Positions 53,670 through 63,985 of a stretch of 64,000 bases of DNA are shown piece after piece. The DNA comes from Venatoribacter cucullus. Lineage in GTDB: Bacteria; Pseudomonadota; Gammaproteobacteria; Pseudomonadales; Oceanobacteraceae. Every line of letters starts with the position of its first letter. Position 1 is the first letter of the stretch. Under the pieces are notes generated by a model. It saw nothing but the letters and a program-made list of their open reading frames with translations, was not told the DNA's origin and made no database searches. The translations under genes were made by a program, and so were the position numbers. Location: assembly GCF_016132445.1 (NCBI RefSeq), contig NZ_CP046056.1, forward strand, positions 1,550,001 through 1,614,000. Direction: 5' to 3'.

Positions 53670-54383
53670 TCAATACGCCCACGAATCATGCGCCAGCGGC
53701 GAACTGTTCAGCAGATTCCGGCGCTCGCGCCAGTCAGGCAGGTATTTATCCATCAGCGTCATAAAGCGCTCGTTATGATGCCGTTCATGCAGGTGTACCA
53801 GTTCATGCACCAGAATAAACTCCAGGCACTCGGGTGCTTTGCGGGCAAGGTCAAGGTTCAGCCAGATGCGTGCCGCTTTAATATTGCAGCTGCCCCATTT
53901 GGTTTTCATGCGCTTAACGCCCCAGCTATCGGCCTGCACGCCTATTAACGGCTGCCAGTATTCCAGCAACTGCGCCGTCGCCGTTTTCATCTGCGCGCGA
54001 TAGTACTCATTCAACAGCGCCATACGGTTATCGCGATGGGTGCCAGGCTGAACGAACAGCGTGATTTTGGTTTTCGTAACCTTAACCTCGTGTTTGCCCG
54101 CGCGCTCACGCACATCCAGCCGTAACCGTTTGCCCCACAGGTAGTGAGTTTCGCCATTCACCATTTCACGCTCGGTCTGGCGTGGCTGGCTGGTAAAGCT
54201 TTTCTGCTGCTTACGAATCCAGGGAATACGCGAGATGACGGCCATACGAATGGCGGTATCGGTCATCTGCAGCGGTGCCGATACCCGCACCTTACCGTCA
54301 GGCGGTAACACGTTGATGTGCAGGTTTTTAATGGCTTTACGCTGCAGGACCAGTGTCAGCTCTCCAAAGCGGAGTTCTGCCAT
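53670..54383 (-). CDS. YgjP-like M48-related metallopeptidase in the RM operon
   Basis: 237 residues of the YgjP/DUF45 family. The zinc motif HELVHLHERHHNERF near residue 200 is intact, with a preceding TKWGSCN block that is the family signature. No membrane helix is visible. The ATG overlaps the hsdR stop in a TAATG arrangement, so translation is coupled. Members often follow type I restriction operons; their role there is not established, and proteolytic control of the restriction subunit is one possibility. Confidence 0.9.
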   Translation of the reverse strand: MAELRFGELTLVLQRKAIKNLHINVLPPDGKVRVSAPLQMTDTAIRMAVISRIPWIRKQQKSFTSQPRQTEREMVNGETHYLWGKRLRLDVRERAGKHEVKVTKTKITLFVQPGTHRDNRMALLNEYYRAQMKTATAQLLEYWQPLIGVQADSWGVKRMKTKWGSCNIKAARIWLNLDLARKAPECLEFILVHELVHLHERHHNERFMTLMDKYLPDWRERRNLLNSSPLAHDSWAY

Positions 54384-57300
54384 TATTCGTAGTCCTTCTG
54401 CGCTTTGACCAATTCCATCACCTGCTGAATATCCACCTCATAGCCCTTGGACTCATCTCGGATCGCATTAGCGATTTCCTTCTCTTTAATGCGATCACCG
54501 TTCCAGTCGGCTTTTTTGGTGTAACGAATGGCGGTATCAATACGGTTAGCCAGCACTTCATCACGGCCTAAGTTATCGTACAACGCGCGTTTAGCGCCGG
54601 TGTCGATGGTCGGCGGATAAGTAACCGCTGCAGTGTCTTCCGGGCGTTTTACCATCCGAGCCAATTTGGCAATTTCTTCCAGATATTTTTTATACTCAAT
54701 CGCCTTTTCACGGCGCAGAGTAATCAGTTCATCCAACAACGCCGACATTTTTTCGTAGTAACGCGGGTTAACCGGGTTTTCGTCAATGATGGTTTTTCGC
54801 ACGTTGTTTTCAATGGCTTCGGCCATGGCTTCGTCATTTTTGCGCAAAGATTCCGGCAGCTGTTCAAGCCCGTCTACGCCTTTCTGCACCACCAGTTCAA
54901 TCAGCCCCAGCTCTTCAAAATCCATCAATTTTTCGCTGTCATCGGCGCGAATATACATATCCAGCAGATGACGCATAGCCGGCTCAAAGCGCTTCATATC
55001 CAGCGCATCACCGCTGGCAAGTTTGATTTCTTCGCGCAGTTTTTCGTAATGCGCCACTTCGGCACGAATAGCGTCTATCTGCTCGCGCGTATAACCCGCC
55101 TCCTGCATTTCGTTGGCGATATTGGCATAAGCACGAATCAACTTAGCCACTGACTGATACAGGTTTAAGCGCAAGGCTTCGCGCTCAGTTAATTCATCAG
55201 CATTGTTGCCCGACTCACCGCAAAAATAATGCTGATACTCAAGCTGACCACGGGGTGCCTTCACGTCTTCGCACAGGGCACGCACCACTTCCAGTGCGTT
55301 ATCCAGGTCTTCTTTAGCCTGCACTAACCGGTCTTTCAGCAGGCCGGCAACGTCTTCCTGATCGTAGCCATCAAAGGCTCCGGCGGTGTAATCCTTAATG
55401 GCTTTATCCAACGAGCGGAACAGGTCTTTATAGTCGATGATGTAGCCGTATTCTTTATCGTCGCCATCCAGTCGGTTAACCCGGCAAATAGCCTGAAACA
55501 AATTGTGGTCGGCCATCTGTTTGTCGATATACAGATAGGTTGCCGAAGGCGCATCAAAGCCGGTCAGCAGTTTGTCTACCACAATCAGCAGCCGCATTTG
55601 TCCCGGTTCTTTGATAAAGCGTTTTTTAACGTCTATCTCAAACTCATCCACGCGGCTGGCCGCCTGTTCTTCGGTGGTTTCAAAATAGTCCGCCAACATA
55701 CGGCGATAAATATCGTATTTGAACAGTTTTTCCGTCAGGCCTTCGCCGGTTTCTTCGCCTTTAATGCTGGCCGCCGTAGGCTGAAAGCTGGTAACAATAG
55801 CAACCTTACCGGCCAGATCGGTCTGGTTAAACATCTCGTAGGCTTTACACGCCTGATACACGCTGGCACACACCAACATGGCGTTGCCACGGCCATCCAT
55901 TAAGCGTGGGCGGGTTTCCATATCCAGAAGAATATCGTTCACAATCTGCTGCAGGCGCGACTTGCTCGACAGCACCTTCTGCATGGTGCCCCATTTCTGC
56001 TTTAGCTGGGTTTTGGCCAGCCCGGACAGTTCGCGGGTTTTGGCCTCAAACCATTCGTCGATCTTTTTCTGCGAAGTAATGTGCTGGTCGATATCACGGG
56101 CTTCGTAGCGCAAATCCAGCACCACGCCATCGGCCACCGCCTGATCGAACTTATAGGTATGAATGAAAGGGCCGAACACTTCGATGGATTTTTTCTTGTC
56201 CTTCTTCATCAGCGGCGTGCCGGTAAAACCAATAAACATCGCCTGCGGCAGAATGGTTTTCATGGCGTCGTGCAACTTGCCCGACTGGGTTCGGTGGCAT
56301 TCGTCCACAAACACAAACAGATTGCCCTTGGCCTGAAAGTTAGCCGGTAACGACGCCTTCAGCTCGGCGATAAAATCGGCCGCGTGTTGTTCGTTGTCAT
56401 CATCGTCATCACCAAAACGGCCAAACTTATGCACCAGCGAACACACCAGCCAGGGGGTGGGTTTATTCAGGCTATCAATCAGGTCGGCACCGCTTTTCGT
56501 GCGATAAATCTGCTCCTGCACGCCACTGAATACTTTCTCGATCTGCTCATCCAGCTCGCTGCGGTCGGTAATAATCAACACGCGGGCATTGGGCTGATTT
56601 TCACGAATCCACTTGGCCAGCCACACCATGGTTAAACTTTTACCCGAACCCTGGGTGTGCCAGATAATGCCACCCTCACGGCGGGCAATGTGCTTTTTAG
56701 CCGCCTGAATACCGAAATACTGGTTGTGCCGGCAGGTTTTTTTAACCCCGGCGTCAAACACCATAAAATCGTGAATCACTTCCAGAAAGCGCGCTTTGTT
56801 GCACAGTCGGGTCAGGTGGTAATCCAGCAAGTTGCCTTCTGGCAGGGTTTCATCGTCTTTCCATTCCAGATAATGCTTTTCCGGGGTTTCGATGGTGCCG
56901 TAGCGCAAGCCCTGGGTATCGTTACCGGCCATCACCAACTGCATGGTGGTGAAGAAATTGCGGATAAAGTCTTTCTTCTGGTTATCCAGATTCTGGTGAA
57001 TACCCTCGGTCACACTCACCGACGAACGCTTGAGTTCAATCACGCCCAGCGCAATGCCGTTTACATACAACACCAAATCCGGGCGCTTGGTTTTGGCCGA
57101 TTGCGATGTGCCTTTTACCGTCACCTCTTCGGCAATGGCAAAGTCGTTGGCTTCGGGGTTTTTCCAGTCGATCAGCCATACCGTCTGATTCAGCTCGCCT
57201 GCACCTTCTTTGTCTTTCACGCCGTAACGCAGCAGGCTGTACACCTCCTGATTGGCGTAATACAGGGTTTTGCCTTCTCCCAGCGCAGCAGCGGTATCCA

Positions 57301-57496
57301 ACTGACGCATCACACGCTTGATCAGCGCCTCGCTGATGCCGCGCTTCTGCAGCCAGGGCACCAGCAGGTCGGGCATCACATTGCGGTTATCGGGCCGGTC
57401 GCTCCAGTCGCCCAGATAGCGATAGCCCAGCTCGCTGCGGAATAACTCCACCACCCGGTTCTGTGTTGCGCGTTCGCGCTGGCCTACTACCGACAT
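54383..57496 (-). CDS. hsdR: Type I restriction endonuclease subunit HsdR
   Basis: A 1037-residue motor and nuclease subunit. The N-terminal nuclease has PDLVLYVNG (Asp near 140) and the ExK motif in GVIELKRS (154-156). The SF2 helicase has Walker A GSGKSLTM, motif II DECHR and motif VI region ICRVNRLDG. A long helical C-terminus contacts the methylase core. It cleaves DNA after translocation when the site is unmethylated. It is separated from darG by 160 bp holding a 24-bp direct repeat, so it may also be expressed separately. The start has GAAGG before it. Confidence 0.95.
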   Translation of the reverse strand: MSVVGQRERATQNRVVELFRSELGYRYLGDWSDRPDNRNVMPDLLVPWLQKRGISEALIKRVMRQLDTAAALGEGKTLYYANQEVYSLLRYGVKDKEGAGELNQTVWLIDWKNPEANDFAIAEEVTVKGTSQSAKTKRPDLVLYVNGIALGVIELKRSSVSVTEGIHQNLDNQKKDFIRNFFTTMQLVMAGNDTQGLRYGTIETPEKHYLEWKDDETLPEGNLLDYHLTRLCNKARFLEVIHDFMVFDAGVKKTCRHNQYFGIQAAKKHIARREGGIIWHTQGSGKSLTMVWLAKWIRENQPNARVLIITDRSELDEQIEKVFSGVQEQIYRTKSGADLIDSLNKPTPWLVCSLVHKFGRFGDDDDDNEQHAADFIAELKASLPANFQAKGNLFVFVDECHRTQSGKLHDAMKTILPQAMFIGFTGTPLMKKDKKKSIEVFGPFIHTYKFDQAVADGVVLDLRYEARDIDQHITSQKKIDEWFEAKTRELSGLAKTQLKQKWGTMQKVLSSKSRLQQIVNDILLDMETRPRLMDGRGNAMLVCASVYQACKAYEMFNQTDLAGKVAIVTSFQPTAASIKGEETGEGLTEKLFKYDIYRRMLADYFETTEEQAASRVDEFEIDVKKRFIKEPGQMRLLIVVDKLLTGFDAPSATYLYIDKQMADHNLFQAICRVNRLDGDDKEYGYIIDYKDLFRSLDKAIKDYTAGAFDGYDQEDVAGLLKDRLVQAKEDLDNALEVVRALCEDVKAPRGQLEYQHYFCGESGNNADELTEREALRLNLYQSVAKLIRAYANIANEMQEAGYTREQIDAIRAEVAHYEKLREEIKLASGDALDMKRFEPAMRHLLDMYIRADDSEKLMDFEELGLIELVVQKGVDGLEQLPESLRKNDEAMAEAIENNVRKTIIDENPVNPRYYEKMSALLDELITLRREKAIEYKKYLEEIAKLARMVKRPEDTAAVTYPPTIDTGAKRALYDNLGRDEVLANRIDTAIRYTKKADWNGDRIKEKEIANAIRDESKGYEVDIQQVMELVKAQKDYE

Positions 57497-57534: not shown

Positions 57535-57658
57535 CATCAAACAACGATCAAACAAATCTGAACGCTGCTAACCCGCATGGATACAGGCATACGCCCGTTA
57601 ATGGCAAGATTATTAACTATCAGGAACTGTAACTCATCAAACAACGATCAAACAAATC
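57535..57658. repeat. Exact 24-bp direct repeat in the darG-hsdR gap
   Basis: CATCAAACAACGATCAAACAAATC occurs at 57535-57558 and 57635-57658. The second copy overlaps the darG stop codon. Each copy holds two ATCAAACAA motifs, so four are present. It may be a scar of insertion or deletion, or an operator. Confidence 0.95.
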
Positions 57659-58727
57659 AGGCAGCCTGAAACCGAGCCAGACGCTCAATCGCAATGTGCA
57701 GGCTGTTGTCGTCGAACAACCGATTCTTACGCTGCGCCCAACGCGCCCCCGCTGGCCAGTGCTGCAATGCCGCGCGCACATCGGCCACATTGGCATTAAC
57801 CCCCTCACGGGTTAACAGCCAATCGACGGTTGCCAGCAGCTCCATGCCATAGGGGCTTTCAAAGCCTTCAATCATGGCCGAGGCCATTTCCAGTGCAGGC
57901 ACATAGTCTTTGGCGGCCGAATTCAGGTAGGCCTGCACCTTGTCGCGGGTTTCGTCACGAAACCAGATCACGTCCAGTGGGTCGCTGTCGGGAATACGCT
58001 TCTCGGCCTTCAGATAACTGCCATCCAGTGCATTCAGCAGATGATCAAGGTTATTGGCGTAGGGGCCGTAATTATTGGCAACAAAATTCAGCTGCAGCTT
58101 ATCGGGCAGCCCCTGCAACTGAATGGCGCGCTGAAGGAACCAGGCCAGCTTCTGAATTTCCAGCAGGCTGCAATCAATACCCAGCAACCAGTAACGGCGC
58201 ACCAGTTCGGCCACTAAGGCCCGTGCTTCGGTAAGATTCTGCACGCCATTACGCTTGGCCACGTTCTGGTAGGCAGCAGTTGGTTCGTACACCAGCACCT
58301 GCACACCGGGTATATCCCCCAGCGCGGCCTCGATACGGGGTTTTACATCCGCCCAGCTCAGGCCACCGTTCCCTGCTCCCAACGGCGGAATGGCAATCGA
58401 CTGTACCTGCTGCTCGACAATAAAGCGCCGTAAATCCTGCAGGCCAGACTCTACCCACTCCATGCGGGAGTTGCCGCGCCAGTGCTGTTTGGTGGGAAAA
58501 TTCACAATCCAGCGCGGGCCCATCAGTTCACCGGTTTCGGTAATGAACATATGCCCGGTCTGCACCTGCTGTTGCTTACAGGCCTGAGCATAGGCCTGCA
58601 TATTGGCCGGGAAGCGCTCTTTGAACATCAATGCAATGCCCTTGCCCATCACACCCACGGTGTTAACGGTGTTTACCAGCGCCTCAACCGGCGCTTCCAG
58701 CAAGTTGCCCTGTGTGTATTCAATCAT
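57657..58727 (-). CDS. darG: DarG macrodomain DNA ADP-ribosyl glycohydrolase (antitoxin)
   Basis: 356 residues. The macrodomain (1-155) has the loop [12 protein letters not shown] (25-36), the FPTKQHWR block with K80 at the position of the catalytic lysine of known DarG, and [13 protein letters not shown]. The C-terminal half (about 170-355; [17 protein letters not shown] and the [14 protein letters not shown] block) is the DarT-binding domain. It removes ADP-ribose from thymidine in DNA and binds DarT directly. The start follows TGATG overlap with darT; ATG 4 codons earlier is possible. It is the only antitoxin seen for two DarT-like proteins. Confidence 0.95.
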
Positions 58728-59371
58728 CAGAAGTACCATCCCGGCCGGGCTTCAACCTGAAGCCCCAGCCCTTGTGCTGTTACCTGAGCCTGAACATCGG
58801 CCCGGTCTGTGTCGTTATGGGTGATGATACCGATCAGCGCCGTAACAGGACAATGCTGATACACCAACGCCTCGGCTTGATAGCGTTCGATCTTGGCCGG
58901 ATCATCGACACTGCGCGCAAAATCGCGCCGCTGCAGCAAAGGCCAGTCGATCTTATCCAGATGTGCAGCACAGGTGTAGAAATTCGCCCATTGGTAATAG
59001 GCATGGCTGTCGGTAAACACATAGGGCAAGCCCGCCTGCTCCAGCCGGTGAATGCTGGACACCAGAATCACGATCTCGTCATTGCTACGGCGGGTAATGC
59101 CGCCCCAGCCGGTCTGAATATTGCGCAACATGGGCGAAAACGGCGTGAAATAAAACGGCACATAATCATTCAGCACACCAAATGGCCGCACCGGCACCCG
59201 GTGGCTGCCGCGCTTAGTGATCAGCTCCGGGTTGCCAATGGATACCCAATTATCCGAGTGCTGCGCATGATTTCCCGCATACAGACCATTGGCCAGAATC
59301 CACGGCAGGTTATCCCGGTGCACAATACGCCAGATCAGGGCTTTTTGAGGATTCAGGCTGGTATAAAGCAT
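58727..59371 (-). CDS. darT: DarT DNA-thymidine ADP-ribosyltransferase toxin
   Basis: 214 residues. Very close to the E. coli DarT sequence as I recall it: [45 protein letters not shown] and the catalytic glutamate E167 in ERYQAEALV. It attaches ADP-ribose from NAD+ to thymidine in single-stranded DNA, blocking replication and aborting phage growth. The start MLYTSLNP has AAGGTGAT before it; codons open further up overlap the preceding gene. It begins four bases after the stop of a second DarT-like gene. Confidence 0.95.
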
Positions 59372-59375
59372 GGCA

Positions 59376-59966
59376 TCACCTTGCAAACATCCACGGCGCC
59401 ACATTGACATGAAGCGTCAAACCGGCGGCTTTCAGATACGCCTGAACAGTCGCCCTATCTGCGTCAGTTTTTACATAGATGGAATGAAATTTCGCAGCAT
59501 CAACGGTTACCGGTGACAGGCATTCCGCCATGCAAGTCTGCTTGTAGTCCTGATCAGTGGCGTAACTGTGCTCTTCGCTGTGCATTAAATCCCAGTTAAT
59601 GGCATTAAAGCCCGCGTCATAATCCATAATGTCCGGGGCTGCACCGCACAGCGGATGGCTGGGTACAATCTTCCAGTTATTGGCCTTTGCCAACTCACGA
59701 TGAACCGCTAAAACAACAAAGGGCGTCGCTGGATGTTTGTGCATAACTGCATAGTCAAACGGGGTGCGTGAGAAAAAGTGAAACGGCACATGCTCTTCCA
59801 ACCCTTTGCTCTTACGTGACTCCAGAATGCTGTGATCCGCCACATCAGCAAAACCCGCACCCGACAATGCGGCACGTGACTGCAGCCCATTTTTCAAAAT
59901 CGACGGCAGATTCTCCATTGCCGTGAGGTGATAGAGCAGTTTCTGATTTTTATAATTTTTTGCCAT
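59376..59966 (-). CDS. Second DarT-like (DUF4433) ADP-ribosyltransferase
   Basis: 196 residues, clearly different from the DarT below it yet of the same family. It opens LLYHLTAMENLPSILKNGL, like the NAD-binding start of DarT/DUF4433 proteins. EEHVPFHFFSRTPFDYAV matches the [10 protein letters not shown] region, and it has a glutamate (E148) in KQTCMAECLSPVTV at the place of the catalytic EALV. The overall length and fold order fit an active enzyme. The target base or sequence may differ. The start follows a TAAGG site made from the hsdS stop, 9 bp away, so translation is coupled. No own DarG is present. Confidence 0.85.
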   Translation of the reverse strand: MAKNYKNQKLLYHLTAMENLPSILKNGLQSRAALSGAGFADVADHSILESRKSKGLEEHVPFHFFSRTPFDYAVMHKHPATPFVVLAVHRELAKANNWKIVPSHPLCGAAPDIMDYDAGFNAINWDLMHSEEHSYATDQDYKQTCMAECLSPVTVDAAKFHSIYVKTDADRATVQAYLKAAGLTLHVNVAPWMFAR

Positions 59967-59975
59967 GTTATGTCC

Positions 59976-61472
59976 TTATACTAAACGGGTTTTTCCGGTC
60001 AGCAGTTCCTGCATCATGCCCTGTTTAATCTGGCGGGTTTTGTTGAGGCGTTGCTCCAGTGCCTGAATCTCGTTGTCCATATCGGAAAGGATGGTGGCGA
60101 TGGCGGTTTGTTCTTCAGCATTCGGATAGCACACACTAATTCTCCCAAGTGCACTACGAGAAATTCTCTTATGTGTTGTACCACCAACCTGTTCGAGAAC
60201 AGATTTAAACCAATCAGATGAAGAAAAATATTGATTGTAGAACTCCCGATTAGCCACTTCAGACGATGATCTAAATATTGTGACATCAACAGAAGTAATT
60301 ACTTTATCTTCACCAATATCAGGAAGAATGCATGATCGTCCAGCAGGTTCTGCCAAACGACAAATCAGTAAATCACCTTTCCTTAATTCCTTACACTTTA
60401 ATTTTTCAAAAGACTCTTCAAAAATGTACTTCTTCGCGTCTTTTTCAATATAACGACCAACACCTATATTTCCTGTTTGTATTAGCCTGACACCTTTATC
60501 TGTAATGTGTTCTGCTTCAATCCAGTCACCATCATCAAAAAGACTTTTTTGACAACCAGCCAGCTCAAAGACAGTTTTTAAATCCCAATCCTCCGGTATT
60601 TCCCCCAACTCACTGGGCTTGGTGCCTTTTGGCGTACCATCGTCGCGCAACGCAAATTGCGGCAGGCGGGTGCGGCCGGTGAGGAGTTGTTGCATGGTGG
60701 CGGTTTTAATCGCCTGTTTTTTGGCGATCAGTTTTTCCAGCTCGCTGACCAGGGCATCGACATCGGATAAGGCATTAGCGATGGCGGTTTGTTCTCGCTT
60801 ACTACTGGGCAAAGGAACAAAGAAATTTTCCATCTCGCCTTTCTGGGTATGTACTAGCGCAGACGCACCATGTGCGGAATCTTCAATCTGCTTGGTTAAT
60901 TGTTTCAGAATGTGGAAAAAATATCCTGAATCAACACCCTCGCCCCTAACTACCAATTTCCAAGTATGGTAATTGAGGAGCGCATCACCACCAAACCAGA
61001 TATGAGGCCCGAATGAGGTGCCCCGACTGCCGGACCATGCAAAAAGAAGCTGTCCATCCTGCACAAATATTTTAGGGTCGTAGTATCCCTGATAGTGGTT
61101 AAACTCATCAGAACCATTAAGGTTTTGAATTCTTATAATAGGCAGGCCTTCTGTGCTCCATTCATAAGGCTTAAAGCCTCGCCCATTAATCAGAGTACAG
61201 ATTTCACCAAATTTCGGCGTATTCCAATCCGCCGGAATCACTCCCACTTCCGTTTGTTTATAGCCCGGCGGGCACACCATTCCCACCTGCGCAGGATTCA
61301 GACCTGCGCTGGCAGAACGTGAAACATATCCGGCACTGGCCTCTGCCGTATACTTTGGACTTACTTCCGCTACTCCGCTGGTACGCCGGCTATCCATGCC
61401 TCCGCCCTGCGGGCCGCCGCAAGCGGCGTTCGCTGTTTGTGAAGAAATAGGTTCTCCCGAAAAACTTGTCAT
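59976..61472 (-). CDS. hsdS: Type I restriction-modification specificity subunit HsdS
   Basis: 498 residues with two target recognition domains and two conserved helical spacers (QTAIANALSDVDALVSELEK and QTAIATILSDMDNEIQALEQ). It determines which bipartite site HsdM methylates and HsdR cuts. The first 60 or so residues are a low-complexity lead before PPGYKQTEVGVIPADW that is unusual for HsdS. The second TRD (about residues 300-455) lies in DNA distinctly richer in A and T than the spacers, suggesting TRD exchange. The ATG overlaps the hsdM stop (ATGA). Confidence 0.94.
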   Translation of the reverse strand: MTSFSGEPISSQTANAACGGPQGGGMDSRRTSGVAEVSPKYTAEASAGYVSRSASAGLNPAQVGMVCPPGYKQTEVGVIPADWNTPKFGEICTLINGRGFKPYEWSTEGLPIIRIQNLNGSDEFNHYQGYYDPKIFVQDGQLLFAWSGSRGTSFGPHIWFGGDALLNYHTWKLVVRGEGVDSGYFFHILKQLTKQIEDSAHGASALVHTQKGEMENFFVPLPSSKREQTAIANALSDVDALVSELEKLIAKKQAIKTATMQQLLTGRTRLPQFALRDDGTPKGTKPSELGEIPEDWDLKTVFELAGCQKSLFDDGDWIEAEHITDKGVRLIQTGNIGVGRYIEKDAKKYIFEESFEKLKCKELRKGDLLICRLAEPAGRSCILPDIGEDKVITSVDVTIFRSSSEVANREFYNQYFSSSDWFKSVLEQVGGTTHKRISRSALGRISVCYPNAEEQTAIATILSDMDNEIQALEQRLNKTRQIKQGMMQELLTGKTRLV

Positions 61473-63985
61473 ACCGTCCACTCCAGCCCCATGGCTCTTA
61501 AGTGACCAGCGACTTTGTCGCTTAACGCATCGACCGATTGGGTAATGGCCGGCAGTGGTTCGGCGTAGCGCTCCTCCAGCTCCTTAACGCGGTTAGCCAG
61601 TTGCTGAGTCATGCGCTCAATTTCGGCCTGCAGGCCGGCTTGTAATGTGGCCAGCCACTTATCGTCCACCACCAGCGCTTTGATGTCGTCTTCATCCAGT
61701 TTGCTGTATTGCTGGAATATGGCCAGGTCGAGTTCGTCCTGGGCTTCTTTTAAAGCTTTTTTGGCTTTTGTTTCTGCGTCCATCAGCTTGCTGCATTGCT
61801 GCAGGGCGTACCATTCCTCGTAGGCTTCGGGATGTTCTGCCTCATAGTTATCGTTTAACAACTCAGCACCACCCAAAGTAATGGCCAATGCTTTAATACG
61901 AGCCTTAACCGTCGCAGCGGTGACTTTGTCTTTATCGTTCAGGGCGTCGTTGAGCAGGCCGTCTTCACCGCTGTTTTCCTCGATGAAGCTTTCCAGTTCC
62001 TGCGCGGCGCTGTCGAGGTTGGCTTGCAGTTGCTCGATATGGCGTAACTGGCTGCTGAAAAAGCGCTCGGCTATTAATGCCGGCGGAATCAGCTCGGCTT
62101 TGTATTTGCTTTTGCCAATCACCAGATCGGGCTGTTCTTTGATTTTTTCCTGTTTGCTTTTATCGGCCACCAGCTCGCGCAGCTGGGCGGCGGCTTGCCA
62201 GCCGTCCTGGGTAATCAGGTACAGGTCGTCCTGCAATGTGTCGGCCCAGTAGTCCATTAAAATCTGGTACACATCGTATTTGCTCAGCAGTGGCACACTG
62301 CTGTAGCGGTTGAGCAGGTCTTCGGCAATACGGTGAATAATGTCTTTGGGCTTTTCGCCCAGGGTAATTTCATCCAGCGCGGCGGCGCTGGCCCAGTCGT
62401 TAAAGGGCTGGGTGCTGGCTGTAGCAAAAGCAGTAAATTCCGGGTGAGCCAGAATACTGGCTTTTACCACGGAGGCCTTCACCAGCGCGGTGCTGTAGCC
62501 GGGGCGGCCCGGTACAAACAGGCTGGCGCGGATGCTGGGGAATACCTGCCAGTAACGCTCTAAGGCGTCGATATCGCGGTTGGGAATGCCGCCCTGCAGG
62601 TGGGCGCTTAAATCGTGCAGGTCTTCGGCTTCGCTGCTGTCGATATAGCGCGGAATGTTCAGGTTGTAATCGTTGGCGGCGATTTCACTTAACGGCACCA
62701 TGCGGCTGTAGCGCGGCAGTTGCAGTTGTTTGGTGAAGACATCGACGATTTTGTGAATGTCCTGCGAGCGCAGGCGGTTTTTATTGCCGTCTTTGGCGAA
62801 GCCTTTGCTGGCATCGACCATAAAAATGCCCTGTTTATCACTGGCTGCGCCAGTTGCGCTGAAGGCTCTCTGCGGCGCCTGCTCTTTGTCGATCACAATA
62901 ATGCAGGCAGGAATGCCGGTGCCGTAAAACAGGTTGGCCGGCAGGCCGATAATGCCTTTGATGTAACCCTGTTTGATCAGGTTTTCGCGGATACGGGCTT
63001 CGGCATTACCCCGGAACAATACGCCGTGGGGCAGAATCACCGCGCCTTTGCCGGTGCTGTTCAGGCTTTTGAGAATGTGCAGCAGAAAGGCGTAGTCGCC
63101 GTTTTTTTCTGGCGGAATGCCCCAGCTGAAGCGGCCAAATTCGTCTTCTTGCGGGTTGATGCCGCTGGTCCAGTTTTTATTGGAAAACGGCGGGTTGGCC
63201 ACGGCAAAGTCGAAGGTTTTCAGTTGGCCGTTAGAGTCTTTCCACTGCGGTGATGCCAGGGTGTTGCCCTTCCAGATTTTGGCGGTGGCGTTGTTATGCA
63301 GAATCATGTTCATACGTGCCAATGCACTGGTGGCGTTGTCCATTTCCTGGCCGAAAATCGACAAGCCACGCGGTGCTTCATCGCTGGCTTTTAACAACAG
63401 CGAGCCGGAACCACAGGTTGGGTCGTATACCGTAGCGTCTTGCGATGTATCACTGGTAATGCCCACCACTTTGGCGAGGATGCGCGACACTTCCGCCGGG
63501 GTATAAAACTGGCCTTTGCTTTTACCCGATTCGGTCGCGAAGTGGCGCATTAAGTATTCGTAAGCGTCGCCCAAAAGGTCGTCGCCGTCGGCGCGGTTGC
63601 CGGACAGATCGATGCCTTCAAAGATACCAATCAGATTGGTGAGGCGATCGACCATTTCTTTGCCTTTGCCGAGCTTGTCTTCGTCGTTGAAGTCGGCAAC
63701 GTCGATCACGCCTTTCAGGTCGTTGGCTTCGGCCAGTGCGCCGATGATTTTGTTGATTTTGTCGCCGATTTCTTTGTCGTTTTTGGCGGCGATCATATCG
63801 TCAAAGCTGGCACCGTCGGGCACGTCGATCATGCCGTAGGGGTCGTCTTTGTATTTGTCAGAGACGTACTTCATAAACAACAGGGTGAGTACGTAATCTT
63901 TGTATTGCGAGGCATCCATACCGCCGCGCAGTTCGTCGCAGCTGGACCAGAGGGATGAATAAAGCTGGGTTTTCTTAATGGCCAT
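61469..63985 (-). CDS. hsdM: Type I restriction-modification methyltransferase subunit HsdM, long form
   Basis: 838 residues, longer than the usual 500-540. The N-terminal helical domain precedes an N6-adenine methyltransferase with SAM motif DPTCGSGS (188-195) and the catalytic ANPPFSN (NPPF at 264-267). After the core there is about 300 residues of further sequence, ending in long coiled-coil stretches (650-838) such as LDSAAQELESFIEEN and EAQDELDLAIFQQYSKL. It is the first gene of the defence operon in view, with AGGAAC before the ATG; the promoter lies at or beyond the window end. Confidence 0.94.
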   Translation of the reverse strand: MAIKKTQLYSSLWSSCDELRGGMDASQYKDYVLTLLFMKYVSDKYKDDPYGMIDVPDGASFDDMIAAKNDKEIGDKINKIIGALAEANDLKGVIDVADFNDEDKLGKGKEMVDRLTNLIGIFEGIDLSGNRADGDDLLGDAYEYLMRHFATESGKSKGQFYTPAEVSRILAKVVGITSDTSQDATVYDPTCGSGSLLLKASDEAPRGLSIFGQEMDNATSALARMNMILHNNATAKIWKGNTLASPQWKDSNGQLKTFDFAVANPPFSNKNWTSGINPQEDEFGRFSWGIPPEKNGDYAFLLHILKSLNSTGKGAVILPHGVLFRGNAEARIRENLIKQGYIKGIIGLPANLFYGTGIPACIIVIDKEQAPQRAFSATGAASDKQGIFMVDASKGFAKDGNKNRLRSQDIHKIVDVFTKQLQLPRYSRMVPLSEIAANDYNLNIPRYIDSSEAEDLHDLSAHLQGGIPNRDIDALERYWQVFPSIRASLFVPGRPGYSTALVKASVVKASILAHPEFTAFATASTQPFNDWASAAALDEITLGEKPKDIIHRIAEDLLNRYSSVPLLSKYDVYQILMDYWADTLQDDLYLITQDGWQAAAQLRELVADKSKQEKIKEQPDLVIGKSKYKAELIPPALIAERFFSSQLRHIEQLQANLDSAAQELESFIEENSGEDGLLNDALNDKDKVTAATVKARIKALAITLGGAELLNDNYEAEHPEAYEEWYALQQCSKLMDAETKAKKALKEAQDELDLAIFQQYSKLDEDDIKALVVDDKWLATLQAGLQAEIERMTQQLANRVKELEERYAEPLPAITQSVDALSDKVAGHLRAMGLEWTV

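Follow-up and report, generated by a model that had tools for sequence, protein, structure and literature searches.

The closest described relatives of the locus analysed here are the DarTG systems, in which a DarT toxin is encoded alongside a DarG antitoxin. In the DarTG2 systems of Thermus, EPEC and M. tuberculosis, a toxin with the ADP-ribosyltransferase (ART) fold is partnered by a macrodomain protein, and roles have been assigned to the residues of the Thermus DarT active site: H13, T15 and N19 engage the adenine-side ribose, Tyr71 stacks with the nicotinamide, R51 acts in polarisation and proton abstraction, and H119 locks the thymine (PMC9967889). The catalytic residue of this enzyme is E160, and it was crystallised as the E160A variant. 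DarTG1 systems combine DarT1 with a NADAR, and ADP-ribosylate guanine (PMC11543638). That DarTG2 occurs within type I restriction-modification (RM) operons is already known, having been first noted in PMC5179494.

The window, meaning the whole 64,000-nucleotide stretch of the Venatoribacter cucullus genome analysed here, contains such an RM-embedded module with a further DarT-like gene, P1, immediately before darT2. We put at about 0.68 the probability that P1 is a catalytically competent toxin from a third DarT clade that has joined DarT2-DarG, generating an operon with two toxins and one antitoxin.

The operon around P1

The genes lie on the minus strand in the order hsdM-hsdS-P1-darT2-darG-hsdR, followed by a metallopeptidase gene:

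61469..63985, minus strand: hsdM, type I RM methyltransferase
59976..61481, minus strand: hsdS, specificity subunit of the type I RM system, immediately before P1
59376..59966, minus strand: P1, divergent DarT-family ADP-ribosyltransferase, 196 aa, ATG start at 59966
58727..59371, minus strand: darT2, canonical macrodomain-type DarT toxin, 214 aa, with E167 (catalytic Glu), R54 and H123
57657..58739, minus strand: darG, macrodomain antitoxin with a C-terminal toxin-binding region, K80 present
54383..57496, minus strand: hsdR, endonuclease subunit of the type I RM system, following darG
53670..54383, minus strand: YgjP-like metallopeptidase gene (PF01863, 198 bits), overlapping the hsdR stop

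These genes are tightly packed, with 9 bp between the end of hsdS and P1, 4 bp (59372-59375) between the P1 stop and the darT2 ATG at 59371, and a darG start, at either 58739 or 58727, that overlaps the 3' end of darT2. The toxin and antitoxin following P1 are ordinary members of DarTG2: darT2 scores 245.5 bits against the NCBIfam DarT model (cut-off 150) and has Thermus DarT (7omv) as its best solved relative (E 2.1e-25), and darG scores 453 bits against the NCBIfam DarG model (cut-off 250). The C-terminal region of DarG had no match in Pfam even at E 5 when Panacea or SocA domains were sought. The YgjP-like gene probably corresponds to "M48" in the EPEC DarTG2/RM island (PMC12255303). At the other end of the operon, the 5' end of hsdS (61290-61480) encodes an N-terminal extension of approximately 75 residues that is of odd composition and overlaps the end of hsdM; this junction is present in a single copy in the genome, which rules out a repeat element.

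Family, clade and active site of P1

A sequence-only reading of this DNA had proposed that a second DarT-family enzyme precedes darT by 4 bp, and both profile and structural comparisons agree. P1 matches the Pfam DarT family (PF14487) at 98.2 bits, far above the cut-off of 22.5, and the PADLOC DarT profile at 134 bits; its 70.8 bits against the NCBIfam DarT equivalog fall below that model's cut-off of 150. The AlphaFold2 model, built from a 29-row alignment (pLDDT 89.9, pTM 0.87), has an ART fold, and its top Foldseek matches are solved DarTs: that of Thermus (7omy; TMq 0.81, E 3e-9), followed by those of M. tuberculosis (TMq 0.79) and Thermosipho (TMq 0.74) and E. coli DarT1 (8baq; TMq 0.67). 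A sequence-profile search of solved structures had the Thermosipho africanus DarTG fusion (7omu) as its best match (E 5e-15), with KptA/Tpt1 appearing as weak matches in both the Foldseek and profile searches, and a viral structure library returned only weak, general ART-fold matches to the model. By family profile and predicted fold, P1 is therefore classed as a true DarT-family ADP-ribosyltransferase, the prediction giving none of the non-ART character that would have counted against the sequence-only reading, and automated annotation already labels its homologues DarT.

Aligned over 207 columns, P1 and the adjacent DarT2 are 24% identical (E = 3e-11), which marks them, at the level of sequence, as distant yet clearly homologous across their whole length. 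In a tree of 74 DarT rows, the 33 distinct P1s form a single clade (support 100/99), separate from the DarT2 clade, which contains the window's darT2 and Thermus DarT, and apart from the group holding the NADAR-linked DarT1s and the Thermosipho fusion. Pfam confirmed a PF22397 NADAR neighbour for four of the five DarT1 rows, the fifth (L066) being assigned by tree position. The low identity and separate clades rule out a recent tandem duplication of darT2, bearing out the original suggestion that the two genes are anciently diverged; equally, the tree, residues and partners exclude P1 being a DarT1 that has lost its NADAR. Tree position, equivalog score and the residues at the Tyr71 and Met78 positions all place P1 outside the DarT2 subfamily, whereas the H119 equivalent agrees with it. 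The P1 clade would hence stand as a third beside DarT1 and DarT2. We found no paper naming this clade or describing a P1-DarT2-DarG tandem in a literature search that covered few subscription journals, and the tree of approximately 5,000 DarT sequences in PMC11481870 may include P1-type proteins unremarked.

The P1 reading frame (59966..59376, minus strand) is open throughout, without internal stops, and dN/dS between tandem homologues was 0.06-0.18 for P1, 0.04-0.14 for darT2 and 0.02-0.10 for darG, placing P1 under purifying selection like the adjacent darT2. As the 33 distinct homologues make up one clade, and the ratio is this low among close homologues, the open reading frame is not a chance occurrence; a pseudogene in the window is likewise ruled out by the open frame, intact active site and low dN/dS in its kin.

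The predicted active site comprises H13 (59930-59928), R51 (59816-59814), H63 (59780-59778), H104 (59657-59655) and E148 (59525-59523), with the motif LLYHLTAMENLPSILKNGL at residues 10-28. E148 had been proposed to stand where DarT has its catalytic glutamate, and it does align with E160 of Thermus DarT and E167 of the neighbouring DarT2. Across the tree set, the equivalents of Thermus R51, H119 and E160 (R51, H104 and E148 of P1) are kept in 33/33 P1s, E148 being lost only in the frameshifted locus L050, and the wider set of H13, T15, N19, R51, H119 and E160 equivalents is kept in 31-33 of the 33. What sets the P1s apart is the Tyr71 position, which is histidine (H63) in all 33, and the Met78 position, which is phenylalanine (F70) in 31; the DarT2 rows of the same alignment have tyrosine at the former in 33/33 and methionine at the latter in 30. 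The Tyr71 to His replacement is a clade-defining change at a functional position, and together with Met78 to Phe it means that the chemistry or acceptor could differ. The H119 equivalent shared by P1 and DarT2 is missing from the DarT1 rows. However, its link to thymine is not absolute, because the thymidine-modifying M. tuberculosis DarT appears in the alignment to have asparagine there. Separately, the NAD-site His13 of Thermus is replaced by arginine at residue 15 of the window's darT2, and in 23/33 DarT2 rows, a further active-site change.

Tandem and paired loci

Homologues of P1 were sought in whole genomes, annotated plasmids and phages, GTDB genome contigs and viral contigs; the last of these gave no match to the P1 sequence alone, and six loci when searched with an alignment. 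Once identical copies were removed, 34 P1-clade loci remained, divided equally between two arrangements. In 17 non-identical tandem loci, found only in Pseudomonadota (Pseudomonas, Marinomonas, Shewanella, Idiomarina, Formivibrio and others) or on unnamed or viral contigs, P1 precedes darT2 and darG, overlapping darT2 or sitting a few bases from it; L084 constitutes an eighteenth. The 17 paired loci, a count that leaves out L008 as a weaker DarT outside the P1 clade, have no DarT2: P1 lies directly before a macrodomain DarG in 16, and is convergent with its DarG, beside a Tn7-like tnsD/tniQ gene, in one more (L059). They come from Bacillota (Bacillus, Cytobacillus, Paenibacillus, Filibacter, Streptococcus and Lachnospiraceae), Bacteroidota and one gammaproteobacterium (L060). 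A convergent P1 and macrodomain DarG also adjoin a tnsD/tniQ gene at L075:5835-9992 (genome G645), so that a Tn7-like transposon is accompanied by cargo of DarTG type whose genes are unusually oriented.

Every P1 on a contig that extends far enough had a macrodomain DarG next to it, the one P1 with none in view (L038) being on a contig that stops close to the darT2 end; nor was a NADAR ever seen adjoining P1. Hence the absence of an antitoxin of its own, which the sequence-only reading had noted for P1, holds at the window and the other tandem loci but not for the subfamily: since P1 elsewhere forms ordinary two-gene pairs with DarG, this is a local state. Hsd-type matches occurred in the flanks of 9/17 tandem and 0/17 paired loci, among which flank lengths differ, so P1 is not a typical type I RM operon gene and the RM link belongs to DarTG2. 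On two viral contigs from one source genome (L037 and L038; 2585427985_000004 and 2585427985_000002), P1 precedes a much more diverged DarT2, which suggests that it joined a second DarTG lineage.

The DarGs likewise divide by arrangement. In a tree made by a quick method and containing several long branches, 15/16 tandem DarGs fell within a clade shared with the DarGs of DarT2 loci lacking P1, and 16/18 paired-P1 DarGs formed their own clade. The catalytic K80 is present in 56/56 DarGs, including that of the window, whose nearest kin (L003 and L004, from the same family) both come from loci without P1. The tandem DarG lineage and these P1-less relatives make P1 an accessory toxin of DarTG2 modules, gained or lost on repeated occasions next to DarT2-DarG; the tandem P1 would use, or at least live with, the antitoxin of DarT2.

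Where loci are broken, it is the toxins that are lost and DarG that stays, although the cases are few and some of the assemblies are drafts. P1 is frameshifted in L050/L074, and has no common start codon in L014, both cases having an intact darT2 and darG. At L084:7748-8889 (genome G1017, of the window's taxonomic order), both P1 and darT2 contain in-frame TAA codons and darG is intact; with a KwaB-like (Kiwa) gene immediately before it, the locus reads as a decaying two-toxin module inside a defence island. At L004:1300-2777 (genome G018, of the window's family), P1 is absent and the darT2 after hsdS has an internal deletion, whereas darG is intact, an antitoxin left without toxins.

Proposed function and comparison with described systems

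An active enzyme could nevertheless have altered chemistry. Its H-H-E site may modify another acceptor, be it a different base or an RNA substrate such as uridine, making the operon a DNA toxin plus a toxin of another kind, with DarG covering both or only one. The replacements of Tyr71 in 33/33 and Met78 in 31/33 P1s, specific to this clade, are consistent with this, as is the use of H-H triads by the related KptA/Tpt1 fold families. Moreover, T. aquaticus DarG also removes uracil-linked ADP-ribose (PMC13036486), so the macrodomain tolerates a change of substrate, and such a modification would be reversible. Yet P1 keeps R51 and the H119 and E160 equivalents, as DarT2 does, and its partners are all macrodomain DarGs rather than NADARs. 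The possibility that a third class of DarT begins with P1, acting on an acceptor of its own (RNA, another base or another motif), such that one DarG controls two chemically distinct nucleic-acid ADP-ribosyltransferases, is consequently on the unlikely side. The same invariant H119 equivalent and macrodomain partners weaken the earlier suggestion that P1 modifies another base, leaving a distinct sequence motif as the part that survives.

It is unlikely, too, that the single DarG leaves P1 unneutralised, with P1 curbed by low expression, by the RM proteins or some other factor, or being non-toxic at native levels. The tandem DarGs are of DarT2's lineage, and the DarG of a paired Cytobacillus P1 is only 35% identical to that of the window, but every P1 that could be checked has a macrodomain DarG beside it, DarG is the part remaining when loci decay, and a shared macrodomain could clear P1 adducts because it hydrolyses the adduct itself, whichever enzyme made it. 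Less probable still is the earlier proposal that P1 regulates DarT, in which a tandem P1 would tune DarT2 release by binding DarG or single-stranded DNA as a regulator or decoy, catalysis not being needed. P1 does open the sub-operon without a DarG dedicated to it, and some loci have lost it or carry a broken copy where DarT2-DarG is intact; against this stand the invariant catalytic residues of tandem P1s, purifying selection on them like that on DarT2, and the paired loci of Bacillota, Bacteroidota and a gammaproteobacterium, which have no DarT2 to regulate.

P1 is therefore most likely a second DarT toxin, probably directed at thymine and held in check by a shared DarG. Neutralisation of both toxins by the single DarG is favoured because P1 does not occur without a macrodomain DarG where this can be checked, and the tandem DarG is that of DarT2. 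The toxicity of P1, its base target, its neutralisation and its role against phages, as we infer them, would then combine as follows. Both P1 and DarT2 would use NAD+ to ADP-ribosylate bases in single-stranded DNA, the acceptor of P1 most likely being thymine, given the retained H104 and R51, within a sequence motif of its own. The DarG macrodomain, through K80, would strip the adduct made by either enzyme, in keeping with the substrate tolerance of T. aquaticus DarG, and its C-terminal region, which mimics single-stranded DNA for its own DarT2 in a finding cited in PMC13368585, would hold at least DarT2 and possibly also P1. Phage infection might upset DarG, releasing both toxins to stop replication as a layer of defence behind restriction. 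Carrying a further, divergent DarT would increase the number of motifs modified and confer resistance to anti-DarT proteins that fit one DarT: AdfB acts on DarTs near its target, leaving a more distant DarT unaffected (PMC11481870), and two divergent DarTs may be harder to escape with one such protein.

Hence the P1-DarT2 tandem may explain how hosts blunt these phage countermeasures. It is also an arrangement that recurs in nature, with a single enzymatic antitoxin apparently serving a pair of divergent toxins, and raises the question of whether DarG protection is set by adduct chemistry, through the macrodomain, or by toxin recognition, through the C-terminal domain. The P1 clade, with its distinctive active-site change, is unnamed in the DarT1/DarT2 scheme as described in available papers, and is a candidate source of new motif specificities for DNA ADP-ribosylation tools.

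Compared with described systems, P1 resembles the DarTG2 toxins in its ART fold, Pfam family, R51/H119/E160 equivalents and macrodomain partner with K80, but differs in lying outside the DarT2 clade, in having His for Tyr71 and Phe for Met78, in scoring under the equivalog cut-off, and in adding a second toxin to one antitoxin. It shares superfamily and fold with DarT1, yet lies outside that clade, has no NADAR neighbour, and carries the H119 equivalent that DarT1 rows lack. The Thermosipho africanus fusion, the best profile match, similarly joins a toxin to a macrodomain partner, but as one fused polypeptide that the tree places away from P1. The EPEC island (RptR-RMS-DarTG-M48, PMC12255303) has the same hsdM-hsdS-darT2-darG-hsdR-metallopeptidase order as the window. 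In the DNA read upstream of the window's hsdM, no obvious small regulator gene on the same strand was recognised as a candidate rptR. The window differs in the insertion of P1 between hsdS and darT2.
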